IMG/VR virus record: IMGVR_UViG_3300006638_000011
Location: 1-37,069 of that record
DNA length: 37,069 nt
Source: a virus
Direction: 5' to 3' (one strand)
Below are positions 12,180-27,294 of the stretch, one piece after another. The translations under genes and the position numbers were made by a program. The notes under the pieces are model-generated. The model ran no database searches. It had not been told where the DNA came from and saw nothing but the letters and a program-made list of their open reading frames with translations. Within the stretch, counting starts at the first letter, position 1. Each line of letters starts with the position of its first letter.

Positions 12180-14768
12180 ATGCTCAAGAAACTGCTGGCG
12201 CTGCTGTTACTGACAGCGGCGATCTCTCCCATTGCTTTCTCCGATCCGCCCTATGTGGGATACGTGCCCGGCGTGTCTGTGCCCATGCTGGGCAGCTTCG
12301 ACACACTCGCTCACCTGACTTCGCAGTTCCCGGCCGCTAACTACAAGGGCGTCACGGCCTATACGCAGGATAGCGGGCTGCAGATAAGCGATGGCTCGAG
12401 CTGGGCATCCGTGGGCGGAAGCGGCGGGGTCACTCAGACCAATACTGTTGCGCTCTCTAACAAGACGATGAGCTATTCGGCCAACACCTTCACCGGGTTT
12501 GGTCAGAATGTCCAATGCACCAACGGCTCGACAGGTTCTGCTGATGCCGCGCTTCTGGCCGCTGCTGCCACGGTCGGCGGCAATATCACGATCACCGGTA
12601 ATTGCACGGTCAATGCGACCACGACGCTCAATTCCAACACCACCGTCGATCTGAACGGCTACACGATCACTGCGGCAGCGGCTGGGAATTGGTCGGGGAG
12701 TGCCATCGCGGCCTTCGTCAATGCCGCAAACAACGCCTCTTACATCGCCGTCCAGAACGGGTATCTAGTCTGGACCGGCGCCTCTGGCGGCGTTCACATC
12801 ATCTCATTCCCTTCAGGCAACTCTCACGTCCGCGTGAGCAACATCTGGTCTACCGGCGCGGGTGATCTTGTTGCCACAGTCGGCACCACAGACGCACTCT
12901 CTCAAGGTAATACGTGTCTTAACTCCCTGAACGCCTGCTTCGATCACTGGGGCGGCGCGACCGACATCAAGGACATCGGCAACTATGCTTCGATGGTCAC
13001 GACCGTGGGAGCCGCCTGCTATCAGTTCACCGGGTTCAATACCAACGGCACCATATCCACGACCACCGGCTACACGGCAATTGGCAACAGTTGCTATTAC
13101 AACACCAACGTTCAGATCGGCATCAACATCAACGGCTTTGTAGGAACGTGCACACAGACATCCTCTAGTCAGGTCATCGTTGCGAATAACCGCGTCTATG
13201 TGGCCGCTGGGATAGAGGGGCCGGGCATTCTCCTGAGTGGCTGCGGCACCTATGCGGATGTTCACGACAACTATATCCAAGCCGATGGAGCGACCACGAG
13301 TTCCTACCCTGCTGTCGAGTCGCAGTCCAGTTTTACCAGCGTGCAGATGCACAACAACATCGCTCAAGGGTGGATTGCTCCCACCTCGGGCAGTGATGGC
13401 GGTGTGTTCAACAACCAGGGCGCCAACGGCTCCATCGTTAACAATCAGTCACTGGGGACCACCAGCACGCTTCTGGTAGGTGGCACGATTGCCGCGACCA
13501 CGCAGATTGCGGGTAACACCTTTGGAACGGCTGACTTTACTGTAACGGGGGCTAACAGCATCGCTCCATTCAGCGCAACCAATACCGGTAATTTGGGCTT
13601 TAATCAAGCTGCTAGTTTTCTTGCCCCCAGTATGTCCACTGGCAACAACGCAGCCACGATTTTAGGACACGACACCGGCACCGGGAACGGAATCACGCAA
13701 GTTTTCAACTACGGCGGCAACAACAACGGCAATAGCTACTGGGCGTTGGAGTTCAACGGTACGGGCATTTATTGGCTGAAGGAGCTGTACTTCCCCGATA
13801 CGCTCTATCTCGGCGACACAGGCACAATCGTCAATCTTCAGGGCACCGCGACGACGGGCACCTTTGCGGCCACCGGGCTCAAGGTTAACGGGACCTCGAC
13901 CGGCGCAACGACTCTTGGCACCGCCAATTCCAGTTCGACCAGCTACACCGCGACCCTGCCAGCGGCCACAGACACGATTGTCGAACTCGCACAAACACAG
14001 TCGCTCAGCGCCAAGACGCTGACGAGCGCTGCGGCGGGCACGCCTTCCATTGTAGGGACCAATACTGCAGCAGCCGCTACCGTCGATGGCATGTCGGATC
14101 TTGCGCCAAACCTGACATCTTCCGAGGCGTACTTACGTCAGTTCGGCACCGCCAATGCGACGGGCAATGAGCTGCAGGAAATATGGAACTACGGCGGTAG
14201 CAATAACGGCAACACGAATTTTCAGATGAAGTTTGCCGGGTACAACGTGTTCTTTCAGCAGACGTTGCTCAATGCGATGACGCTGGGCGATGGGGGATCG
14301 ACTATCACGCTGTCGGCCGCTGCCGGTGGCATCACGTTGAGCAATGTCACGACTGGCACCAATGCGGATTTTCTGTGCCTGTCGAGCGGCCATGTCGTAC
14401 TCTTGCAGACCTCGGCTTGCACGATCTCCAGTTTGCGCTTCAAAGAGAACGTCAGCCCCTTTGCCGGCAATGCCCTGACGCGGCTTGCGAAACTCGATGT
14501 GGATATCTACAACCTGAAGGCAACGGGTAATGCAGACCCGAATGCGACAACGACTCAGGTCGGTCTGATTGCAGAGAACATCGCCCAAGTGTTCCCGCAG
14601 TGCGCGATCTACGAAAACGACATGAAGACGCCGAAGTCATACCGGCAGGAGTGCATCATTGCGCTGCTGGTGCGCGGCGAGCAGGAGCTGATGCAGCAGA
14701 ACCATCTGCTGCAGGCGCGGCTCAATCGAGTCGAGCATCCGCGCCAGTTGCAGGCCAAGGCACACTAA
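12180..14768 (+). CDS. Tail spike with S74 intramolecular chaperone domain and N-terminal signal-like segment
   Basis: Of its 862 residues, the first about 21 (MLKKLLALLLLTAAISPIAF, then S) look like a Sec signal peptide, unusual for a tail protein. Residues about 40-80 have the YKGVTAYTQDSGLQISDGSS pattern of tail proteins. About 110-480 look like a right-handed beta-helix, with Asn-rich turns and NNIAQGW- and GNTFG-like rungs. The end, from residue 750 (SSLRFKENVSPF), through VGLIAENIAQVFPQC and YRQECIIALLVRGEQEL, fits the peptidase S74/endosialidase chaperone domain, which helps trimer folding and is then cut off. It probably binds or degrades host polysaccharide; no catalytic residues can be assigned. 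Confidence 0.8.
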   Translation: MLKKLLALLLLTAAISPIAFSDPPYVGYVPGVSVPMLGSFDTLAHLTSQFPAANYKGVTAYTQDSGLQISDGSSWASVGGSGGVTQTNTVALSNKTMSYSANTFTGFGQNVQCTNGSTGSADAALLAAAATVGGNITITGNCTVNATTTLNSNTTVDLNGYTITAAAAGNWSGSAIAAFVNAANNASYIAVQNGYLVWTGASGGVHIISFPSGNSHVRVSNIWSTGAGDLVATVGTTDALSQGNTCLNSLNACFDHWGGATDIKDIGNYASMVTTVGAACYQFTGFNTNGTISTTTGYTAIGNSCYYNTNVQIGININGFVGTCTQTSSSQVIVANNRVYVAAGIEGPGILLSGCGTYADVHDNYIQADGATTSSYPAVESQSSFTSVQMHNNIAQGWIAPTSGSDGGVFNNQGANGSIVNNQSLGTTSTLLVGGTIAATTQIAGNTFGTADFTVTGANSIAPFSATNTGNLGFNQAASFLAPSMSTGNNAATILGHDTGTGNGITQVFNYGGNNNGNSYWALEFNGTGIYWLKELYFPDTLYLGDTGTIVNLQGTATTGTFAATGLKVNGTSTGATTLGTANSSSTSYTATLPAATDTIVELAQTQSLSAKTLTSAAAGTPSIVGTNTAAAATVDGMSDLAPNLTSSEAYLRQFGTANATGNELQEIWNYGGSNNGNTNFQMKFAGYNVFFQQTLLNAMTLGDGGSTITLSAAAGGITLSNVTTGTNADFLCLSSGHVVLLQTSACTISSLRFKENVSPFAGNALTRLAKLDVDIYNLKATGNADPNATTTQVGLIAENIAQVFPQCAIYENDMKTPKSYRQECIIALLVRGEQELMQQNHLLQARLNRVEHPRQLQAKAH

Positions 14769-18278: not shown

Positions 18279-19304
18279 ATGACTGTTTTAACCAATACAA
18301 CCCAGACCTTCGGCGTCGGCTCAGGCGGCGGTATCCGTGAGGATTTAGAAGATGTGATCTGGGATCTATTCCCTGAGGACACCTGGGCGGTATCGAACCT
18401 AGATAAGGTCGATGCGACCGCTCCGACCCATGAATGGCTCGGCCAGACTCTGCTGGCAGCCGCCGCGAACATCGGTGTGGAAGGCGATGATGCCTCCTTC
18501 ACCTCGCTCACCAGCCCGTCGCGATACGGCAATTACACCCAGATCCTGTCCAAGACCTTCCTGGTCTCAGACACCCTGGAGGCGACGAAGCGCGCTGGTC
18601 GCGGCTCTGAAGTGGCTCGCGGCGCGATGATCAAGATGCGCGAACTAAAGCGCGATCTGGAATATGCCCTTACCCAGAATGCCATCGGCACGGCCGGTGG
18701 TTCCACGACCGGGCGCTCGATGGCCGGCATGGAGACCTGGATCTCAGGTTATCTCAAGAACGCCTTTGTGGGCACGACCGCGACTGCCTCAACCGCAGTG
18801 ACGGCCACCACGACCTCAACCTCGGCAACGACCCCGCTCACCTCATCGGGTGTACCGGGAACCGCGCCGACCGATCCGGCCGTGGGCTCTCAGGGTGCGA
18901 TCACCTCGACCGCGTTGAACTATGCGCTACAGGGCGCGTGGAGCAATGGCGGCGACCCGACGATCATCCTGTGTTCTGCGAACAACAAGACCAACATTGA
19001 CAACTTCACGTCGATTGCGACGCGCTTTGTCGATGTGGACAAGGCAACGCAGAGCCCGATCATCGGTGCGGCTAATGTGTATGTCAGCGACTACGGCCGC
19101 CATACGGTGGTTCTGCATCGCTACATGCGCGCTCAGACCGTTCTGTGCCTGGACCCGAACTACTGGGCGATCGCGTTCCTGCGCCGTCCCATGGCTCGGG
19201 AGCTTGCACGTACGGGCGATGGTACGAAGTACCAGATCATCACTGAGGCCACTTTGGTGGCTCGCAACTGGCAGTCCAGTGCGAAAGTGGTGGGCCTCAT
19301 ATAG
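18279..19304 (+). CDS. Major capsid protein, DUF5309/SU10 type
   Basis: The 341-residue protein has the signatures I associate with DUF5309/SU10-type HK97-fold capsid proteins: REDLEDVIWDLFPEDTWAVS at the start, APTHEWLGQTLLAAA and VEGDDA near residues 47-70, RYGNYTQILSKTFLVSDTLE, then ELKRDLEYALTQN. The C-terminal DPNYWAIAFLRRPMARELAR and KYQIITEATLVARN close the family pattern. A Thr/Ala-rich insertion at about residues 165-205 may form a surface loop or decoration site. AGAGGACAAC precedes the ATG. A strong hairpin terminator lies directly after the gene. Confidence 0.9.
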   Translation: MTVLTNTTQTFGVGSGGGIREDLEDVIWDLFPEDTWAVSNLDKVDATAPTHEWLGQTLLAAAANIGVEGDDASFTSLTSPSRYGNYTQILSKTFLVSDTLEATKRAGRGSEVARGAMIKMRELKRDLEYALTQNAIGTAGGSTTGRSMAGMETWISGYLKNAFVGTTATASTAVTATTTSTSATTPLTSSGVPGTAPTDPAVGSQGAITSTALNYALQGAWSNGGDPTIILCSANNKTNIDNFTSIATRFVDVDKATQSPIIGAANVYVSDYGRHTVVLHRYMRAQTVLCLDPNYWAIAFLRRPMARELARTGDGTKYQIITEATLVARNWQSSAKVVGLI

Positions 19305-19310
19305 GCATGT

Positions 19311-19339
19311 GGGGCGGTTGTGAGCCGCCCCTCTCTTTT
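19311..19339 (+). terminator. Terminator/attenuator after the capsid gene
   Basis: GGGGCGG (19311-19317) pairs with CCGCCCC (19325-19331), followed by TCTCTTTT. It lies 7 bases after the capsid stop and would reduce transcription of the glycosyltransferase genes relative to the capsid gene. It also argues that the next gene starts at 19340 and not at 19307. Confidence 0.7.
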
Positions 19340-19855
19340 ATGCTAGTCATCATCGGTTCCGGCCCCTCTATCGTCGGTAAGGGCCTGGGTCCGTGGATAA
19401 ACGGCAATATCGTTGTAAGGCTCAAGAGCGGCATTATCCCCAACGCCAAGGACTGGGGCTGCCGGACAGATATCAGGTGCGCATCATCCATATCGCACAA
19501 GGGCACTGAACCCTTCTGGATTCTCGCAAGCCATGAGTGCGAGGACCACAACTCGCCTAACACGTTTCGCGCGCATAGAAAGAAGTGGATGACCTATTTC
19601 GAGAAGTTCAAGCCGAAGTACAAGATGAGCACGGGCCTGCGGGCTATTTTCTGTGCGGCTGAATTCGGCCATACAGAAATTGGTCTAGCTGGTTTCGATA
19701 ACCTGCTTTATCCCACCGTGAAGGGGTACTGCAAGTGGAACGAGGAACGACATAAATACCGCTGGGTACACGATGTGGAAGCCGAACACAATGCGGCCTT
19801 CGGACTCGGTTTAGACATCAAGGATGTAACGCAGGACAGTGGCAGAATTCTATGA
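19340..19855 (+). CDS. GT29 (sialyltransferase)-like glycosyltransferase (171 aa)
   Basis: Three patterns of the sialyltransferase GT29 family can be seen. A motif-L-like start (MLVIIGSGPSIVGKGLG, then VVRLKSGIIP and GCRTDI) would bind the nucleotide sugar. An S-like motif, STGLRAIFCAAEFGHTEIGL ending in AGFD, comes later. A VS-type H-x4-E (HDVEAE) lies near the end. CMP-sialic acid or a related donor is therefore possible, but donor and acceptor are unknown. It is much shorter than animal enzymes, like bacterial and phage relatives. An upstream ATG at 19307 would place the terminator inside the gene. Ribosome site is weak. First gene of the glycosylation cassette. Confidence 0.65.
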   Translation: MLVIIGSGPSIVGKGLGPWINGNIVVRLKSGIIPNAKDWGCRTDIRCASSISHKGTEPFWILASHECEDHNSPNTFRAHRKKWMTYFEKFKPKYKMSTGLRAIFCAAEFGHTEIGLAGFDNLLYPTVKGYCKWNEERHKYRWVHDVEAEHNAAFGLGLDIKDVTQDSGRIL

Positions 19856-20189
19856 ATACGACCCCATGACGGGTATCCGCACGGATACGTCATGGAGCGA
19901 GTCAGAGCAGAAGATGACGCTCATTCGCACCGCGGATGTTGAGCCGCTTCTGGATCACACCAAGGCGATTGCCAATGGTGTGGGCGTCAATAGCGGTGAC
20001 ATCAAGGCCGGGTGGTGGCTCTACGCCAAGATCCCGCCAGTGGTCATCCTGCAACTGCGAGCGAAGGGTATCAACGTATTCGACAAGAATGACGAGTCCC
20101 GCATGTTCGCCGAACTTAACAGCAACTTCCCGCACCTGAAATGCACGACTGGCATGCACGGCCCGCGCGGAGTCAAGATTTTAGGCTAG
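19839..20189 (+). CDS. Conserved small phage protein (116 aa)
   Basis: The GTG at 19839 overlaps the end of the GT29-like gene by 17 bases and has AGGA upstream. The pattern RTADVEPLLDHTKAIANGVG, then GWWLYAKIPPVVILQLRAKG and a short end with MFAELNSNFPHLK, resembles a widespread small phage protein of unknown function that is often encoded near glycosyltransferase-like or head genes. It has no signal or membrane segment. Its last 17 bases overlap a small ORF on the other strand. Confidence 0.6.
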   Translation: MAEFYEYDPMTGIRTDTSWSESEQKMTLIRTADVEPLLDHTKAIANGVGVNSGDIKAGWWLYAKIPPVVILQLRAKGINVFDKNDESRMFAELNSNFPHLKCTTGMHGPRGVKILG

Positions 20190-20334
20190 GGATTTCCCAT
20201 GTTTCTTTGGGGAATTTAGCCAAAATGCGCGGCTCTTTGGCCACTTGGCGCTCATGGTCTTTCGTGATCCTAATGACCGCTTTAATCTTGGCCTTTGACA
20301 GATTGCCGAAATAGTGGCGTAACTTCTTGTTCAT
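20173..20334 (-). CDS. Antisense small basic protein in late operon (53 aa)
   Basis: An ATG at 20334 opens a 53-residue frame on the minus strand, filling the gap between two plus-strand late genes. The product is lysine-rich and well formed: MNKKLRHYFGNLSKAKIKAV followed by an ITKDHERQVA segment and a PKETWEIPSLKS end. The DNA is more AT-rich than its surroundings. The region before it has AT-rich words (TATGAT, TAATAT) that could be a minus-strand -10, but no clear -35 or ribosome site. It may be a moron-type gene with its own promoter, and it would be read against the late transcript. Confidence 0.5.
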   Translation of the reverse strand: MNKKLRHYFGNLSKAKIKAVIRITKDHERQVAKEPRILAKFPKETWEIPSLKS

Positions 20335-20351
20335 GGAACAATATTATCATA

Positions 20352-21866
20352 ATGGCCGATAGTGTGAGCGATGCCTGCCGAGAAGCAGCCCAACTCGGGC
20401 GTGCCGGGGGGCATGAAAACCTCAAGGCGGCATGGAAGATCATCAACAAGCTGCTGACGGAAGCACCTAAGAGCGTGCCGGCTCTGGTTACCGGCAGCTT
20501 CCTGATGTACAAGCTCGAGAACTTCCCGGTTGCTTATCACTTTGCGCTCGCCGCCACCCAGATATGGCCTAACAATGATGCCACCTGGACGAACCTTGGG
20601 CATGCCGCGAGTGCGATGTGGTTGCCCGAGGAAGCAGAACGCGCCTACAAACGCGGCTTGCAGTGCAAGAATCAGACGCAGGAGCGCGAAACGCTGCTCC
20701 TTAATCTGTGCGCGCTCTATCTCGACAACGGACGTTTCAGCGAAGGCGAGGACATCGCGCGCAAGATCCTTGCAAGCAATCCGGCGCATGTCGGGGCTCG
20801 CACGAACTTAGGCTTCTGTCAGCTCGCCAAGGGCGACTGGGCGGAGGGCTGGAAGGGCTATCACGGCAGCATCGGCGAGGACTGGCGGCCAAGAGTACAG
20901 TACAACGATGAGCCGGAATGGGACGGCACTCCAGGAAAGGTTGTCGCGCTCTATGGCGATCAGGGCCTGGGCGATGAGATCAGCTTCGCCAGCATGGTCC
21001 CAGATGCTAAAGCTGTGTGCAGTAAGCTGATCCTGGACTGCGACGACCGGCTAGAGGGCTTATTCAAGCGCTCCTTTCCCGGCGTCAGGGTTTACGGGAC
21101 GCGCCGAAACAAGAGCGGCAAGTGGGATAAGGACGACTGGAATGTGGAAGGTTCTCTCCCATTAGGTCAGATCGGTGAGTTCTTCAGGACATCCGAGGAT
21201 TCATTTCCGGGCAAGCCCTATCTGGTGCCCTGTCCTGACCGGGTTCGCATGTGGGATGGACTGTGGAATCCTCGCAAGCCCGTCATCGGGATCGCGTGGA
21301 GCGGCGGGATACCCAAGACCAACTCGCGCAATCGCAGGGTGGGGCTTAATGAGTTCCTGCCGGTATTTCACCAGATCGATGCCCAGTACGTCTGCTTGCA
21401 ATACAAGGATGCTGCCGAGGAAATTGCAGCGTTTCACGTGAAACACCCGGAGGTGAATCTCAAGCAATATCCGTGGGGCACGCTGACTTCAGACTATGAC
21501 GACACGGCCGCTCTCATTGCTTCATGCGACTATGTTCTGTGCATCCAGACCGCTGTAGCTCACACGGCAGCGGCTTTGGGTGTTCCGGTCTCGGTTCTCA
21601 TTCCGGTAGCAACGACGTGGCGTTATGGGTCAACTAAACAATCGATTCCTTGGTATGAAAGTCTACGAATCATCCGCCAAGCCAAGCATGGATCATGGAG
21701 ATGCGAAATTGAACGCGCAGGTAGCGAGATCGCAACTTATCTCGGACGAGTACCGCACCGAGCAAGAGAGACTGCACGAGACGACGAACTACGGCGTGAT
21801 GAGCCTGCACTATGCGCCAATCGTCTCGCAGATCATAAACCGAATGGGTGTCACGCACCTTCTTGA
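20352..21866 (+). CDS. TPR-containing glycosyltransferase (GT9/GT41-like, 504 aa)
   Basis: Residues about 20-185 are tetratricopeptide-like helices (ATWTNLGHAASAMWLPEEAE, LLNLCALYLDNGRFSEGEDI, GARTNLGFCQLAKGDWAEGW). From residue 195 the protein has LYGDQGLGDEISFASMV, a heptosyltransferase-like or O-GlcNAc-transferase-like start, then GIAWSGG, LQYKD, and near 390-425 DYDDTAALIASCDYVLCIQT and AVAHTAAALGVPVSVLIP. TPR glycosyltransferases of this kind add sugars to proteins or to polysaccharides. The ATG at 20352 has no good ribosome site. The last about 50 residues are overlapped by the next gene in another frame and may not be conserved. Confidence 0.75.
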   Translation: MADSVSDACREAAQLGRAGGHENLKAAWKIINKLLTEAPKSVPALVTGSFLMYKLENFPVAYHFALAATQIWPNNDATWTNLGHAASAMWLPEEAERAYKRGLQCKNQTQERETLLLNLCALYLDNGRFSEGEDIARKILASNPAHVGARTNLGFCQLAKGDWAEGWKGYHGSIGEDWRPRVQYNDEPEWDGTPGKVVALYGDQGLGDEISFASMVPDAKAVCSKLILDCDDRLEGLFKRSFPGVRVYGTRRNKSGKWDKDDWNVEGSLPLGQIGEFFRTSEDSFPGKPYLVPCPDRVRMWDGLWNPRKPVIGIAWSGGIPKTNSRNRRVGLNEFLPVFHQIDAQYVCLQYKDAAEEIAAFHVKHPEVNLKQYPWGTLTSDYDDTAALIASCDYVLCIQTAVAHTAAALGVPVSVLIPVATTWRYGSTKQSIPWYESLRIIRQAKHGSWRCEIERAGSEIATYLGRVPHRARETARDDELRRDEPALCANRLADHKPNGCHAPS

Positions 21867-22284
21867 CTATGGCTGCGGGTCCAATTGCAATCTGGCTAAA
21901 AAGCTCAAGGCCGACCACAAGGTCACTTATCAGGCCTACGATCCGGGGGTGCCGAAGTATTCCAAGGAGCCGCTGCCGGCTCAGATGGTGGCCTGCATCG
22001 ACGTGCTGGAGCATATAGAGGCCGATAAGCTCGATGCGGTGCTGGATGACATTGTGCGCGTGTGCGAGGGCATCGCGTTCCTATCTATTGATACGAAGGC
22101 GGCCGGCAAGTGGCTCTCAGATGGCAGGAATGCTCATCTGACGCAGGAGCCGATGCAGTGGTGGCTGCCGAAGCTCTGGGATCGCTGGGACTTGCAGACG
22201 ATACAGGTAGGCAATGACCGATGTTTCTTTGTCATCGGGCTTGCAAAGCCTCGCATCGAAGCCACGGATGGATCGCTGCTGTAG
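21688..22284 (+). CDS. Class I SAM-dependent methyltransferase
   Basis: The core has HYAPIVSQIINRMGVTHLLD and the SAM-binding glycine motif LLDYGCGSN, followed by an acidic residue after the second strand (QAYDPG) and VACIDVLEHIEADKLDAVLD, a standard Rossmann methyltransferase layout. The substrate is unknown; in this cassette it may methylate a sugar or modify the glycan end. The start is uncertain: ATGs at 21625, 21655 and 21688 are all in frame and all inside the TPR-glycosyltransferase gene, so an overlap of at least 179 bases in different frames is hard to avoid. The stop overlaps the next start. Confidence 0.7.
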   Translation: MDHGDAKLNAQVARSQLISDEYRTEQERLHETTNYGVMSLHYAPIVSQIINRMGVTHLLDYGCGSNCNLAKKLKADHKVTYQAYDPGVPKYSKEPLPAQMVACIDVLEHIEADKLDAVLDDIVRVCEGIAFLSIDTKAAGKWLSDGRNAHLTQEPMQWWLPKLWDRWDLQTIQVGNDRCFFVIGLAKPRIEATDGSLL

Positions 22285-22942
22285 CTTCCTTCTGGTAGGG
22301 GATCAGCCCTACGCGCGCAGCATGGTCGAGAGCGTCAAGGACGTTCTGGGCTACCGCGTCGTGCAGATGTCGGACCTTAAGACTCCCGCTGTTCCGGGCG
22401 TCGATGAAGTGGTCAGACGACCCTTCAATATCGAGCTGATGCTCTACCGCTTCTCGCATCTCGCGGCCTACAGGCACGATGAGATGCTGATTCTCGACAC
22501 CGATGTCATCGCAAAACGCACCCTGGACGATGTGTGGGAGCGCTCCTTCGAGGTCGCGCTCACGCGCCGTGAGGGAGCGCTGGCCGAGAACGGCGGCGCT
22601 GATATGGCGGACAAGATGCCGTTCAACACGGGCGTCATGTTCTCCCGCGGTCGATGGTTCTGGGGCGCCTGCCAGAAGTGGCTTGAACGCCAGTCGCCTA
22701 ATCTGCATCGCTGGTACGGGGATCAGCATGCCGTAGCCGCAGTGGCCGCTAGGCGCATCTACAGCGTCCTATCTCTGCCCTGCAATGAATTCAACTGGTC
22801 GCCGAACTCGCGCGAGGATACGTCCGATGCGCGGCTGTGGCACTTTAAGGGAGCGATTCGCAAGAAATGGATACCGTCAGGCTCTTCGTTGGTTTCGACC
22901 AGCGAGAAGCCGCCGCTTACCACGTTTTCTGCCAATCCGTAA
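22268..22942 (+). CDS. GT8-like glycosyltransferase with DxD motif (224 aa)
   Basis: The order of motifs fits a GT-A fold transferase of the GT8 type: CCSFLLVGDQPYARSMVESV at the start, FNIELMLYRFSHLAAYRHDE, the DxD metal and nucleotide-sugar site in MLILDTDVIAKRTLDDV, then KMPFNTGVMFSRG and WYGDQHAVAAVA. Start 22268 is preferred because it overlaps the methyltransferase stop by 17 bases and removes an unneeded leader; 22214 is also in frame. It is the third glycosyltransferase of the cassette. Donor and acceptor sugars cannot be told from sequence. Confidence 0.7.
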   Translation: MDRCCSFLLVGDQPYARSMVESVKDVLGYRVVQMSDLKTPAVPGVDEVVRRPFNIELMLYRFSHLAAYRHDEMLILDTDVIAKRTLDDVWERSFEVALTRREGALAENGGADMADKMPFNTGVMFSRGRWFWGACQKWLERQSPNLHRWYGDQHAVAAVAARRIYSVLSLPCNEFNWSPNSREDTSDARLWHFKGAIRKKWIPSGSSLVSTSEKPPLTTFSANP

Positions 22943-23598
22943 TCGCTCGCGCCAGTATTCCGGTCTCGTTCCACCCGCTAGCCGCAAATATGCTGGCCGG
23001 CTTTGACGGCCAGGGCAGCGGCAGCAACGCCTTCACGCTCTCGCGCTATCTGGTCCCCCTGCTGTGCGACTTCAAAGGCTTTGCGATCTTCGCTGATGGA
23101 GACATGGTGTGCGATACCGATATCGCAAAGCTCTGGGAACAGCGCCCGATCTATAACGCGGTCTCTGTGGTCAAGCACGACTATAAGACCCGCCATCCTC
23201 GCAAGTACATCGGCACGCCAATGGAATCTGCGAATGAGGATTATCCCAGGAAGAACTGGTCAAGCCTGATTATCTGGAACTGCGGCCACTACGCGAACCG
23301 GCTACTAACGCGCGAGTATGTGCAGCAAGCGCCAGCATCATTCCTGCACCGTTTCCAGTGGCTTGAGGATACCAACATATCCTCGCTATTCCACGGCTGG
23401 AACTGCCTGGTAGGAGAGGATTCGCCCAGCTCGGCTGCGGTCTATCACTACACCCTTGGGGTGCCGGGTATCAAGCATTACGCCGATGGACATGCTTCAT
23501 GGCACTGGCACAAGGAGCTGCTGAGCGCATTGGAATGTGCCGGCGAAGATCCGGTTAGCGCGGTCAAGCGAGCACAGGAGCGTATCGGTGATATTTAG
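22867..23598 (+). CDS. Phage-type glycosyltransferase with DGDM motif (243 aa)
   Basis: The protein starts MDTVRLFVGFDQREAAAYHV and contains SNAFTLSRYLVPLLCDFKGF, the DxD-type FADGDMVCDTDIAKLW, VKHDYKTRHPRKYIGTPMES, and PRKNWSSLIIWNCGHYANRL. This set belongs to a family found in phages and in bacterial surface-sugar loci. It ends the glycosylation cassette. The start overlaps the preceding gene by 76 bases in another frame and the end overlaps the adaptor gene by 11. The role could be capsid or tail glycosylation, or change of the host surface after infection; neither is shown. Confidence 0.75.
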   Translation: MDTVRLFVGFDQREAAAYHVFCQSVIARASIPVSFHPLAANMLAGFDGQGSGSNAFTLSRYLVPLLCDFKGFAIFADGDMVCDTDIAKLWEQRPIYNAVSVVKHDYKTRHPRKYIGTPMESANEDYPRKNWSSLIIWNCGHYANRLLTREYVQQAPASFLHRFQWLEDTNISSLFHGWNCLVGEDSPSSAAVYHYTLGVPGIKHYADGHASWHWHKELLSALECAGEDPVSAVKRAQERIGDI

Positions 23599-24211
23599 TT
23601 CCTATGTGGACTTTCGCAATAAAGTGCATGTGCTGCTCGACGGCGATGACATCAGCACGTCAGACCTCTCGACATCAGTGCTGGATCTGGTGATTGGAGC
23701 TGGAGAGGTGAGGATCTACCGTGATCTTCGCTCAAGCGTGCAGGACACGGCTTTGTCGCTGACTGTGACTGGTGGCGGGGCAGCTCTGCCTTCGGACTAC
23801 CTGGAGCTTCGTGGTGCGCCCTACGTAGCAAATCACGGGGTAGCCAGCTATGAGCCTTGGGAGGCCATCACTGATCTGACGCAGCGCAAGGTGAGAAGCG
23901 CGCCCTACCCGATCCGGTACAGCTTTCAGGGCGATGCGATCATTTTCTACCCCTCGATGCCAGATGGTACGGTAGTGACAGGCCAGTATTACAAGCGCTT
24001 CCCCGACATTTCAACGGCACTCAATGCGCTGTTTACTCGCCACCCGGATCTGTTCCTCTATGCCGCGCTGTCCTCTAGCGCGCCGTTCCTGGGTGAACTG
24101 ACACGGCTTCCAATCTGGGAGCAGACCTACACCGCACTCGTGGAATCTGCCAATGAGCAGGAGCGCCGTCGTGTCACGCGCGGATCGAAGCTTGCGACGC
24201 GCCTTGGATGA
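23588..24211 (+). CDS. Head-tail adaptor protein (SU10/gp4-like)
   Basis: The GTG at 23588 has AGGAG seven bases upstream. The protein (207 aa) contains FSSYVDFRNKVHVLL, ALPSDYLELRGAPYVANH, PYPIRYSFQGDAIIFYPSMP and a helical end with PDLFLYAALSSSAPFLGELT. This is the pattern of phage adaptor proteins that form the ring below the portal: short N-terminal helices, a beta sandwich and C-terminal helices. The following nozzle gene, coupled by ATGA, supports this role. Longer in-frame starts would extend into the glycosyltransferase gene. Confidence 0.7.
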   Translation: MIFSSYVDFRNKVHVLLDGDDISTSDLSTSVLDLVIGAGEVRIYRDLRSSVQDTALSLTVTGGGAALPSDYLELRGAPYVANHGVASYEPWEAITDLTQRKVRSAPYPIRYSFQGDAIIFYPSMPDGTVVTGQYYKRFPDISTALNALFTRHPDLFLYAALSSSAPFLGELTRLPIWEQTYTALVESANEQERRRVTRGSKLATRLG

Positions 24212-26370: not shown

Positions 26371-26579
26371 GGAACGAGCTGAGCGAGATCCGGGGCGAGC
26401 TGGTGAAGCTCAATAAGCAGATTGGAGAACTCATTTGTTTTCAAAAGCTAGCGGCCGCCCGTGAATCTCATCGCACAATTGAATGCACTGCCGCTTACAT
26501 GGCCGGAGAAGTTGGCCTACCTAACGCACCGATTTCTGGACTTGGAGCAATCGGAATACCCTCTGCGTCATCTGTTTGA
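26367..26579 (+). CDS. Small coiled-coil protein overlapping the SET gene (70 aa)
   Basis: The GTG at 26367 overlaps the preceding stop. The first 30 residues (VRNELSEIRGELVKLNKQIG) form a clear coiled coil; the rest is Ala/Gly-rich. Its last 119 bases overlap the start of the next gene in another frame. Either both are real overlapping genes, or this is a short coiled-coil product whose tail is only a by-product of the other frame. No function known. Confidence 0.45.
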   Translation: MRNELSEIRGELVKLNKQIGELICFQKLAAARESHRTIECTAAYMAGEVGLPNAPISGLGAIGIPSASSV

Positions 26580-27294
26580 TGGCGGTCTTTATATTAGAGA
26601 GATTTCGATACCTGCGGGTGAGTTAATTATCGGGCGAGAACATCGCCATGGTCACTTGTGCCAACTGCTTTCCGGGTCGATTGTGCTCAATTCACAAGAC
26701 GGACAAGTCAGGTTCGATGCGCCTGCTGAATTTACCTCACGTCCTGGCTATCAGATGGTGGTGCAGGCATTGACCGATGTAGTGGCAAGAACCGTTCATC
26801 CGAATCCATGCGATTCGCGTGACATTGCGGCCTTGGAACAAGAGGCTTTCGTTCCAGAAAATGGAATGCTCGCCTTGGGGAAAGCCGTTCATGTGCGCCT
26901 CACGCGATATGCCTATCAGGCGCTGAAGGATGAGGCCGGCATTACGCCAGACATCGAAAACAAGCTGCGGGATCTGTACACGAACACTGATGACATCATC
27001 GATTTCACCACACCGGTGAAGGTGGAGATAGGCCCATCAACCATTGAAGGTCATGGCGTCATGACGAAGGCCCCAATCATTCTTGGCGAGCGTATCTGTC
27101 CTATTCGCATAGGGCCTAACCGCACGCCTGCTGGTCGTTACCTGAATCATTCGGATTCCCCCAATGCAAAGTGCTTTCTTGAAGATCGGTCAGTTTATGT
27201 GGATGCGATTTGGCCCATTCCCAGTGGTTCTGAAGTGCTAGTCAATTATCGGGATGTCCTTAATACAACGTCTCGATTAGAGGTTTTATCGTGA
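26461..27294 (+). CDS. Cupin-like plus SET-domain protein (277 aa)
   Basis: Residues about 35-120 form a small beta-barrel (LYIREISIPAGELIIGREHR, HGHLCQLLSGSIVLNSQDGQ) of a cupin-like type that I know from other phage proteins. Residues about 185-272 have SET-domain features: STIEGHGVMTKAPIILGERI, then RYLNHSDSPNAKCF (NHS..PN, the SAM-binding loop), and SGSEVLVNYRD. SET proteins transfer methyl groups to lysine. The gene lies between the nozzle and ejection genes. GTG start without a strong ribosome site; the stop overlaps the next GTG. Substrate unknown; it could be a virion protein or a host protein. Confidence 0.7.
   Translation: MNLIAQLNALPLTWPEKLAYLTHRFLDLEQSEYPLRHLFDGGLYIREISIPAGELIIGREHRHGHLCQLLSGSIVLNSQDGQVRFDAPAEFTSRPGYQMVVQALTDVVARTVHPNPCDSRDIAALEQEAFVPENGMLALGKAVHVRLTRYAYQALKDEAGITPDIENKLRDLYTNTDDIIDFTTPVKVEIGPSTIEGHGVMTKAPIILGERICPIRIGPNRTPAGRYLNHSDSPNAKCFLEDRSVYVDAIWPIPSGSEVLVNYRDVLNTTSRLEVLS

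Follow-up and report, generated by a model that had tools for sequence, protein, structure and literature searches.

The locus studied here raises the question of why a phage carries a block of glycosyltransferase and methyltransferase genes between its capsid and neck genes, and on which molecule the encoded enzymes would act. The window, by which we mean the whole 37,069-base stretch of DNA that was analyzed computationally, contains genes for an SU10-type portal, a scaffold, a major capsid protein (MCP) and an adaptor, which identifies the phage as short-tailed. No close DNA relative of the window was found among phage records. The interval from the MCP gene to the adaptor gene spans positions 19340 to 23598 and holds 6 open reading frames, all in one direction and all present at the limits given in the initial annotation. 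The features of the region are:

18279-19304, plus strand: MCP of the SU10/DUF5309 type (HK97 fold), Pfam SU10_MCP 254.9 bits, with homologous solved capsids 9ny2 and SU10 7z45
MCP residues of about 150-212: Thr-rich loop, candidate acceptor according to the loop analysis
19311-19331, plus strand: terminator-like hairpin 3' of the MCP gene, with a 9-pair stem (7 G-C) followed by a T-rich tail
19340-19855, plus strand: GT29-like (sialyltransferase-family) glycosyltransferase, Pfam PF00777, an optional cassette member
19839-20189, plus strand: small core head-operon protein (phrog_3982 type), found after the MCP in cassette-less phages too
20295-21866, plus strand: TPRGT, with predicted TPRs (about residues 14-200) and a predicted GT9-type GT-B domain (about residues 210-486), from AlphaFold2, Foldseek and VIA
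21625-22284, plus strand: SAM-dependent methyltransferase (MT), phrog_24759 with an E-value of 1e-22
22214-22942, plus strand: GTa, a predicted GT8/glycogenin-type GT-A enzyme, optional, from an AlphaFold2 model, VIA and conserved motifs
22867-23598, plus strand: GTb, a DxD glycosyltransferase (GT8/GT24-like), phrog_28018 with a PHROG E-value of 3e-31
23537-24211, plus strand: SU10-type neck adaptor, Pfam SU10_adaptor 65.8 bits, the right border of the cassette

The terminator that had been proposed to follow the capsid gene was confirmed by the hairpin and its T tail, for which a minimum free energy of -19.8 kcal/mol and an RNA z-score of -2.9 were obtained. The GT29-like gene starts immediately 3' of this hairpin, at position 19340, and the GT29 genes of the relatives are placed likewise. 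It was also noted that a gene inside the structural gene block (26461-27294, plus strand) encodes a protein with a C-terminal match to the SET domain (Pfam 27.7 bits against a cutoff of 22.4), that is, a lysine-methyltransferase-like protein in a phage. Furthermore, a gene located between the terminase and portal genes, and not among the tail genes (12180-14768, plus strand), encodes a protein of 862 residues that ends in a Peptidase_S74 (endosialidase chaperone) domain.

The enzyme classes proposed in the initial annotation held for the GT29-like protein, TPRGT, the methyltransferase and GTa. GTb has an invariant DxD motif but only marginal, GT8-like matches, those in the PDB included. The GT29-like protein reached the Pfam gathering score marginally (24.0 versus 23.0 bits), and 8 of its 17 relatives matched the family at E-values of up to 1, the best being 1.6e-6. 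Relatives conserve the patterns G-x-GPS...VVR...RTD, KPSxGL...G-x-D and HDxxAE, which by eye resemble the sialylmotifs L, S and VS. The MT protein is a class I methyltransferase with a match to Methyltransf_23 (E-value 2e-4, below the curated cutoff), and in the alignment most of its relatives start about 35 codons further in. Neither the GT29-like protein nor GTa had a match in phage records, and GTa matched no Pfam family, GT8 included. The idea that GTa is an orphan was rejected, as relatives were identified in 4 other cassettes, with shared DxD, NTGVMFS, GDQ and WH.KG..K motifs. A model of GTa built from only five sequences (pLDDT 81) has a predicted GT-A fold of the GT8 type, with glycogenin (Z 16.7, Foldseek E-value 5e-9) and the PBCV-1 capsid glycosyltransferase 2p72 (Z 16.6) equally close; the Z-scores and models presented here describe predicted folds and say nothing about activity. 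In GTb, D77 and D79 are invariant in 45 sequences and the phage homologs carry a glycosyltransferase annotation; the score for Pfam GT8 was below the cutoff (12.5 versus 24.3 bits), and the GTb profile did not match the GTa profile outside the DxD region. GTb-like genes were also seen beside or near methyltransferase genes in Pelagibacter phage Mosig and Stenotrophomonas phage DLP6 (L357 and L358), which are unrelated large phages where these genes are distant from the capsid genes.

The central enzyme of the cassette is TPRGT. An AlphaFold2 model built from 62 relatives (pLDDT 90.7) places TPRs in front of a GT-B domain in one chain, which is the architecture of OGT, SPINDLY and FlmG, and the protein O-glycosyltransferases SPINDLY and OGT led the whole-chain Foldseek matches. 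The glycosyltransferase domain has a predicted GT-B fold of the GT9 type and was structurally closest to GT9 enzymes, LPS heptosyltransferases first, with VIA Z-scores of 18.4 for 3tov, 17.9 for WaaF and 16.7 for WaaC over about 245 to 260 residues, and of 16.5 for TibC. Sequence scores were below the GT9 cutoffs both for TPRGT itself (Pfam Glyco_transf_9, 16.3 versus 22 bits) and for its relative L013 (TIGR02193, 22.8 versus 185); TPRGT had no Pfam match to the GT41 sequence family, and its glycosyltransferase domain alone had no sequence match in the PDB. Structure prediction and profile searches, which had been suggested as a check, yielded a TPR domain, seen at the sequence level too, and a GT-B domain that is below the GT9 threshold in sequence but of the GT9 type in its predicted fold. 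D227 in the QGLGDE motif is invariant in 62 sequences and would correspond, by motif alone, to the catalytic Asp of WaaC and TibC. The C-terminal tail (residues 489 to 523) overlaps the MT gene and is predicted to be disordered; the two genes share up to 240 nt (21625-21866), and the relatives L013 and L017 end about 50 to 60 codons sooner, the extra tail being probably a read-through of a lost stop codon. Among bacterial relatives of TPRGT, 5 of the 75 loci had flagellin neighbors, 4 of them strong, a suggestive but uncontrolled count; the flagellin gene was located within about 8 kb in L240, L252, L256 and L265.

To place the cassette in context, about 200 loci were gathered via GTb, an MCP profile and the MCP, and for this reason the frequencies of locus types carry a sampling bias. 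Where relatives lack a cassette, the MCP, small-protein and adaptor genes are consecutive, at times interrupted by one or two others. The small protein follows the MCP in phiM5 and Venkman, among other phages that have no cassette, and since it is present in relatives without any glycosyltransferase, we conclude that it is a core head gene and not, as had been proposed, part of the cassette or of a sugar pathway. The TPRGT gene adjoined the head genes, directly after the small protein gene, in all 79 loci where the MCP was accompanied by TPRGT. Among the loci with both borders, 49 contained the small protein only, 13 also contained TPRGT, 11 contained TPRGT and GTb, 7 contained TPRGT and MT, and 37 contained TPRGT, MT and GTb in both orders, while a GT29 gene was located in front in 16. 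Neither GTb nor MT was seen without TPRGT in the MCP-adaptor slot of the loci collected. The gene-order comparison thus revealed an order that recurs in dozens of contigs at 35% to 80% identity, beyond chance, and the cassette is real and conserved; its identification as a glycosylation cassette was supported.

Additional genes in the slot of the relatives code for FkbM methyltransferases, radical SAM/SPASM proteins, GT2- and GT9-like proteins and an Ig-domain protein. The latter (L161:7915-8433) is encoded directly 3' of the capsid gene, at the position that the GT29-like gene takes in the window, and is possibly a capsid decoration protein. The radical SAM/SPASM proteins are encoded within the cassette region (L007:6609-7550 and L037:6892-7842) and could possibly modify peptides or sugars. 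In a different branch of the same capsid family, a single Anp1/GT62-like glycosyltransferase gene occupied the slot that separates the small head protein gene from the adaptor gene (L039, L040, L041, L100, L113, L114, L120, L121 and L277-L356).

TPRGT was found to diverge in step with the capsid. The pairwise identities of TPRGT and the MCP were correlated with a Mantel r of 0.85 (n = 71), and the corresponding correlations with MCP distances were 0.84 (small head protein), 0.66 (adaptor), 0.47 (GTb) and 0.41 (GT29). On an MCP tree built without the loop, the presence of TPRGT maps to a single change. TPRGT behaves like a head gene in its inheritance, while GTb and GT29 look as if they have been exchanged more freely.

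The initial annotation had left it open whether the glycan is built on the virion or on the host surface. A late modification of the LPS core or capsule, for example against re-adsorption of progeny, would place the genes in the late operon for timing only; GT9, GT8 and GT29 enzymes often make glycans that are lipid-linked or displayed at the surface, the GT9 domain of TPRGT is structurally nearest to LPS heptosyltransferases, and pairs of MT and GTb-like genes occur far from the capsid genes in unrelated large phages. The GT9 fold is known mainly from LPS enzymes, which also counts against a protein acceptor. We nevertheless consider a host-surface target unlikely, given that the TPR module resembles enzymes with protein acceptors, that TPRGT co-diverges with the MCP as closely as a head gene does, that clear membrane segments were absent from the cassette proteins (highest hydropathy over 19 residues, 1.0 to 1.8), and that neither a flippase nor a lipid-carrier enzyme was seen. 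The build of TPRGT, its co-divergence with the MCP, the hydropathy values and the Thr content of the MCP loop make the virion the better of the two options.

The capsid domains of SU10 have been described previously (PMC9509320). The loop was the MCP region with the largest difference in Ser/Thr content between phages with and without TPRGT, with a median of 18 Ser and Thr residues (n = 79) versus 10 (n = 48). The enrichment is mainly in Thr, of which the loop contains on average 13.2 residues in phages with TPRGT, 8.9 in phages with the unrelated Anp1-like glycosyltransferase in the slot, and 5.9 in phages with neither. However, since the contrast between phages with and without TPRGT corresponds to a single change on the MCP tree, it represents one event and may be plain ancestry, and within the TPRGT clade the corrected association of loop Ser/Thr with cassette content was null (r about 0). 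The loop composition was therefore rejected as independent proof. The eight TPRGT-less phages with an Anp1-like glycosyltransferase contained 12 to 15 loop Ser/Thr residues versus a mean of 9.55 in the 40 without a glycosyltransferase (P = 1.4e-5, kinship ignored). Tree contrasts of any glycosyltransferase against loop Ser/Thr gave a weak association (r = 0.24, P = 0.006), and 4 of 4 independent pairs with and without a glycosyltransferase differed in the same direction (sign test, P = 0.125). The Anp1-like contrast was post hoc; the prediction was then recorded and new loci were fetched, and 12 or more loop Ser/Thr residues were found in 41 of the 43 new MCPs accompanied by an Anp1-like glycosyltransferase, nearly all of which belong to one lineage. 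The earlier suggestion that the loop is the acceptor is thus plausible but not established: the loop is more Thr-rich where a glycosyltransferase occupies the slot, but the association weakens strongly when shared ancestry is taken into account.

Alternatively, the acceptor could be a virion protein other than the MCP, for example the small head protein, the adaptor, the scaffold or the tail fibers. TPRGT always directly follows the small protein, whose divergence tracks that of the MCP equally well, but the Ser/Thr enrichment of TPRGT-bearing phages was confined to the MCP loop and was seen neither in the rest of the MCP nor in the other two proteins compared, namely the small protein and the adaptor; we regard such an acceptor as rather improbable. 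Phage glycosyltransferases often act on DNA (PMC12619734), and the cassette might glycosylate modified bases in the manner of the T-even phages. This reading is highly improbable, as no base-hypermodification genes were found among the window proteins scanned, those of the larger open reading frames, the cassette is tied to the head genes, and the TPR-GT architecture speaks against it.

We therefore favor, with a probability of roughly 0.6, the explanation that the phage glycosylates its own virion, with TPRGT starting the sugar, probably on the MCP, and the other enzymes extending, capping and methylating it. In this reading, a freshly synthesized structural protein, with the MCP as the likeliest candidate, would be bound by the TPR arm of TPRGT, and the GT9-type domain would move a sugar from the host's nucleotide-sugar pool onto Ser or Thr, the Thr-rich loop being the likeliest site. 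The attached sugar may then be extended or capped by GTa, GTb and the GT29-like enzyme and methylated by the methyltransferase, and a coat of this kind might, for example, shield the shell or mediate contact with surfaces. The protein acceptor, the Ser/Thr linkage, the order of action, the donor and the benefit are what we infer from the genes. The sugar donors are probably those of the host, because none of the window genes scanned is one for nucleotide-sugar synthesis; for this reason the "full pathway" of the initial annotation was not upheld.

A wider scenario, to which we assign somewhat less than even odds, is that a large clade of uncultured short-tailed phages devotes an O-glycosyltransferase with TPR and GT9 domains to its capsid and that this enzyme has co-evolved with the MCP and its Thr-rich loop, while accessory GT29, GT8-type and methyltransferase genes are swapped and diversify the coat, and an unrelated glycosyltransferase has independently entered the same slot in sister phages. 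Because TPRGT is built like protein-glycosylating enzymes and stays beside the same capsid gene across a whole clade, the data suggest that these phages sugar-coat their own shell. If so, capsid glycosylation would be an old and stably inherited trait across a wide group of environmental phages, phage shells with sugar-coated proteins would be commoner than the few studied cases suggest, TPRGT would provide an uncommon example of a phage-encoded, TPR-guided protein glycosyltransferase, and TPRGT and the MCP loop would form a testable pair of enzyme and acceptor.

A capsid-adjacent arrangement of such a cassette was not found in the literature searched, which covered few subscription papers. 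Among known systems, OGT and SPINDLY share the whole-chain TPR and GT-B architecture, whereas TPRGT has no GT41 Pfam match and a glycosyltransferase domain nearer to GT9. In Caulobacter, the TPR domain of FlmG binds flagellin, which FlmG glycosylates (PMC7591256). The likeness of TPRGT to FlmG is one of shared architecture, an N-terminal TPR and a C-terminal GT-B domain, and in both cases the acceptor, here proposed, is a polymerizing structural protein; FlmG, however, uses pseudaminic acid on flagellin, and genes for pseudaminic acid were not found here. TibC and AAH of the BAHT family are protein O-heptosyltransferases, with TibC acting on autotransporters (PMC4358343). TPRGT resembles TibC in the fold of the glycosyltransferase domain and in the proposed use of Ser in a protein as acceptor, but TibC lacks a TPR arm, contains an iron finger and assembles into a dodecamer (PMC4358343). 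The PBCV-1 enzyme 2p72, a viral capsid-glycosylating enzyme, shares its fold with GTa, although it belongs to a eukaryotic algal virus with another capsid, and the likeness is one of fold only, at 15% identity. In mycobacteriophages of the Che8 type, phage glycosyltransferases attach glycans covalently to the major capsid protein (Freeman et al. 2023, as cited in PMC11256854 and PMC12619734). In mycobacteriophages these glycans are reported at the C-termini, and in the related phage Maravista the glycosyltransferase genes are located near the genome end and not beside the capsid gene. Both systems are those of tailed phages with their own glycosyltransferases, while the phages studied here, known from their genes alone, have a capsid of another family and a TPR-containing enzyme. 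Capsid glycosylation by phage enzymes is thus already known from mycobacteriophages, and the present system is a variant.
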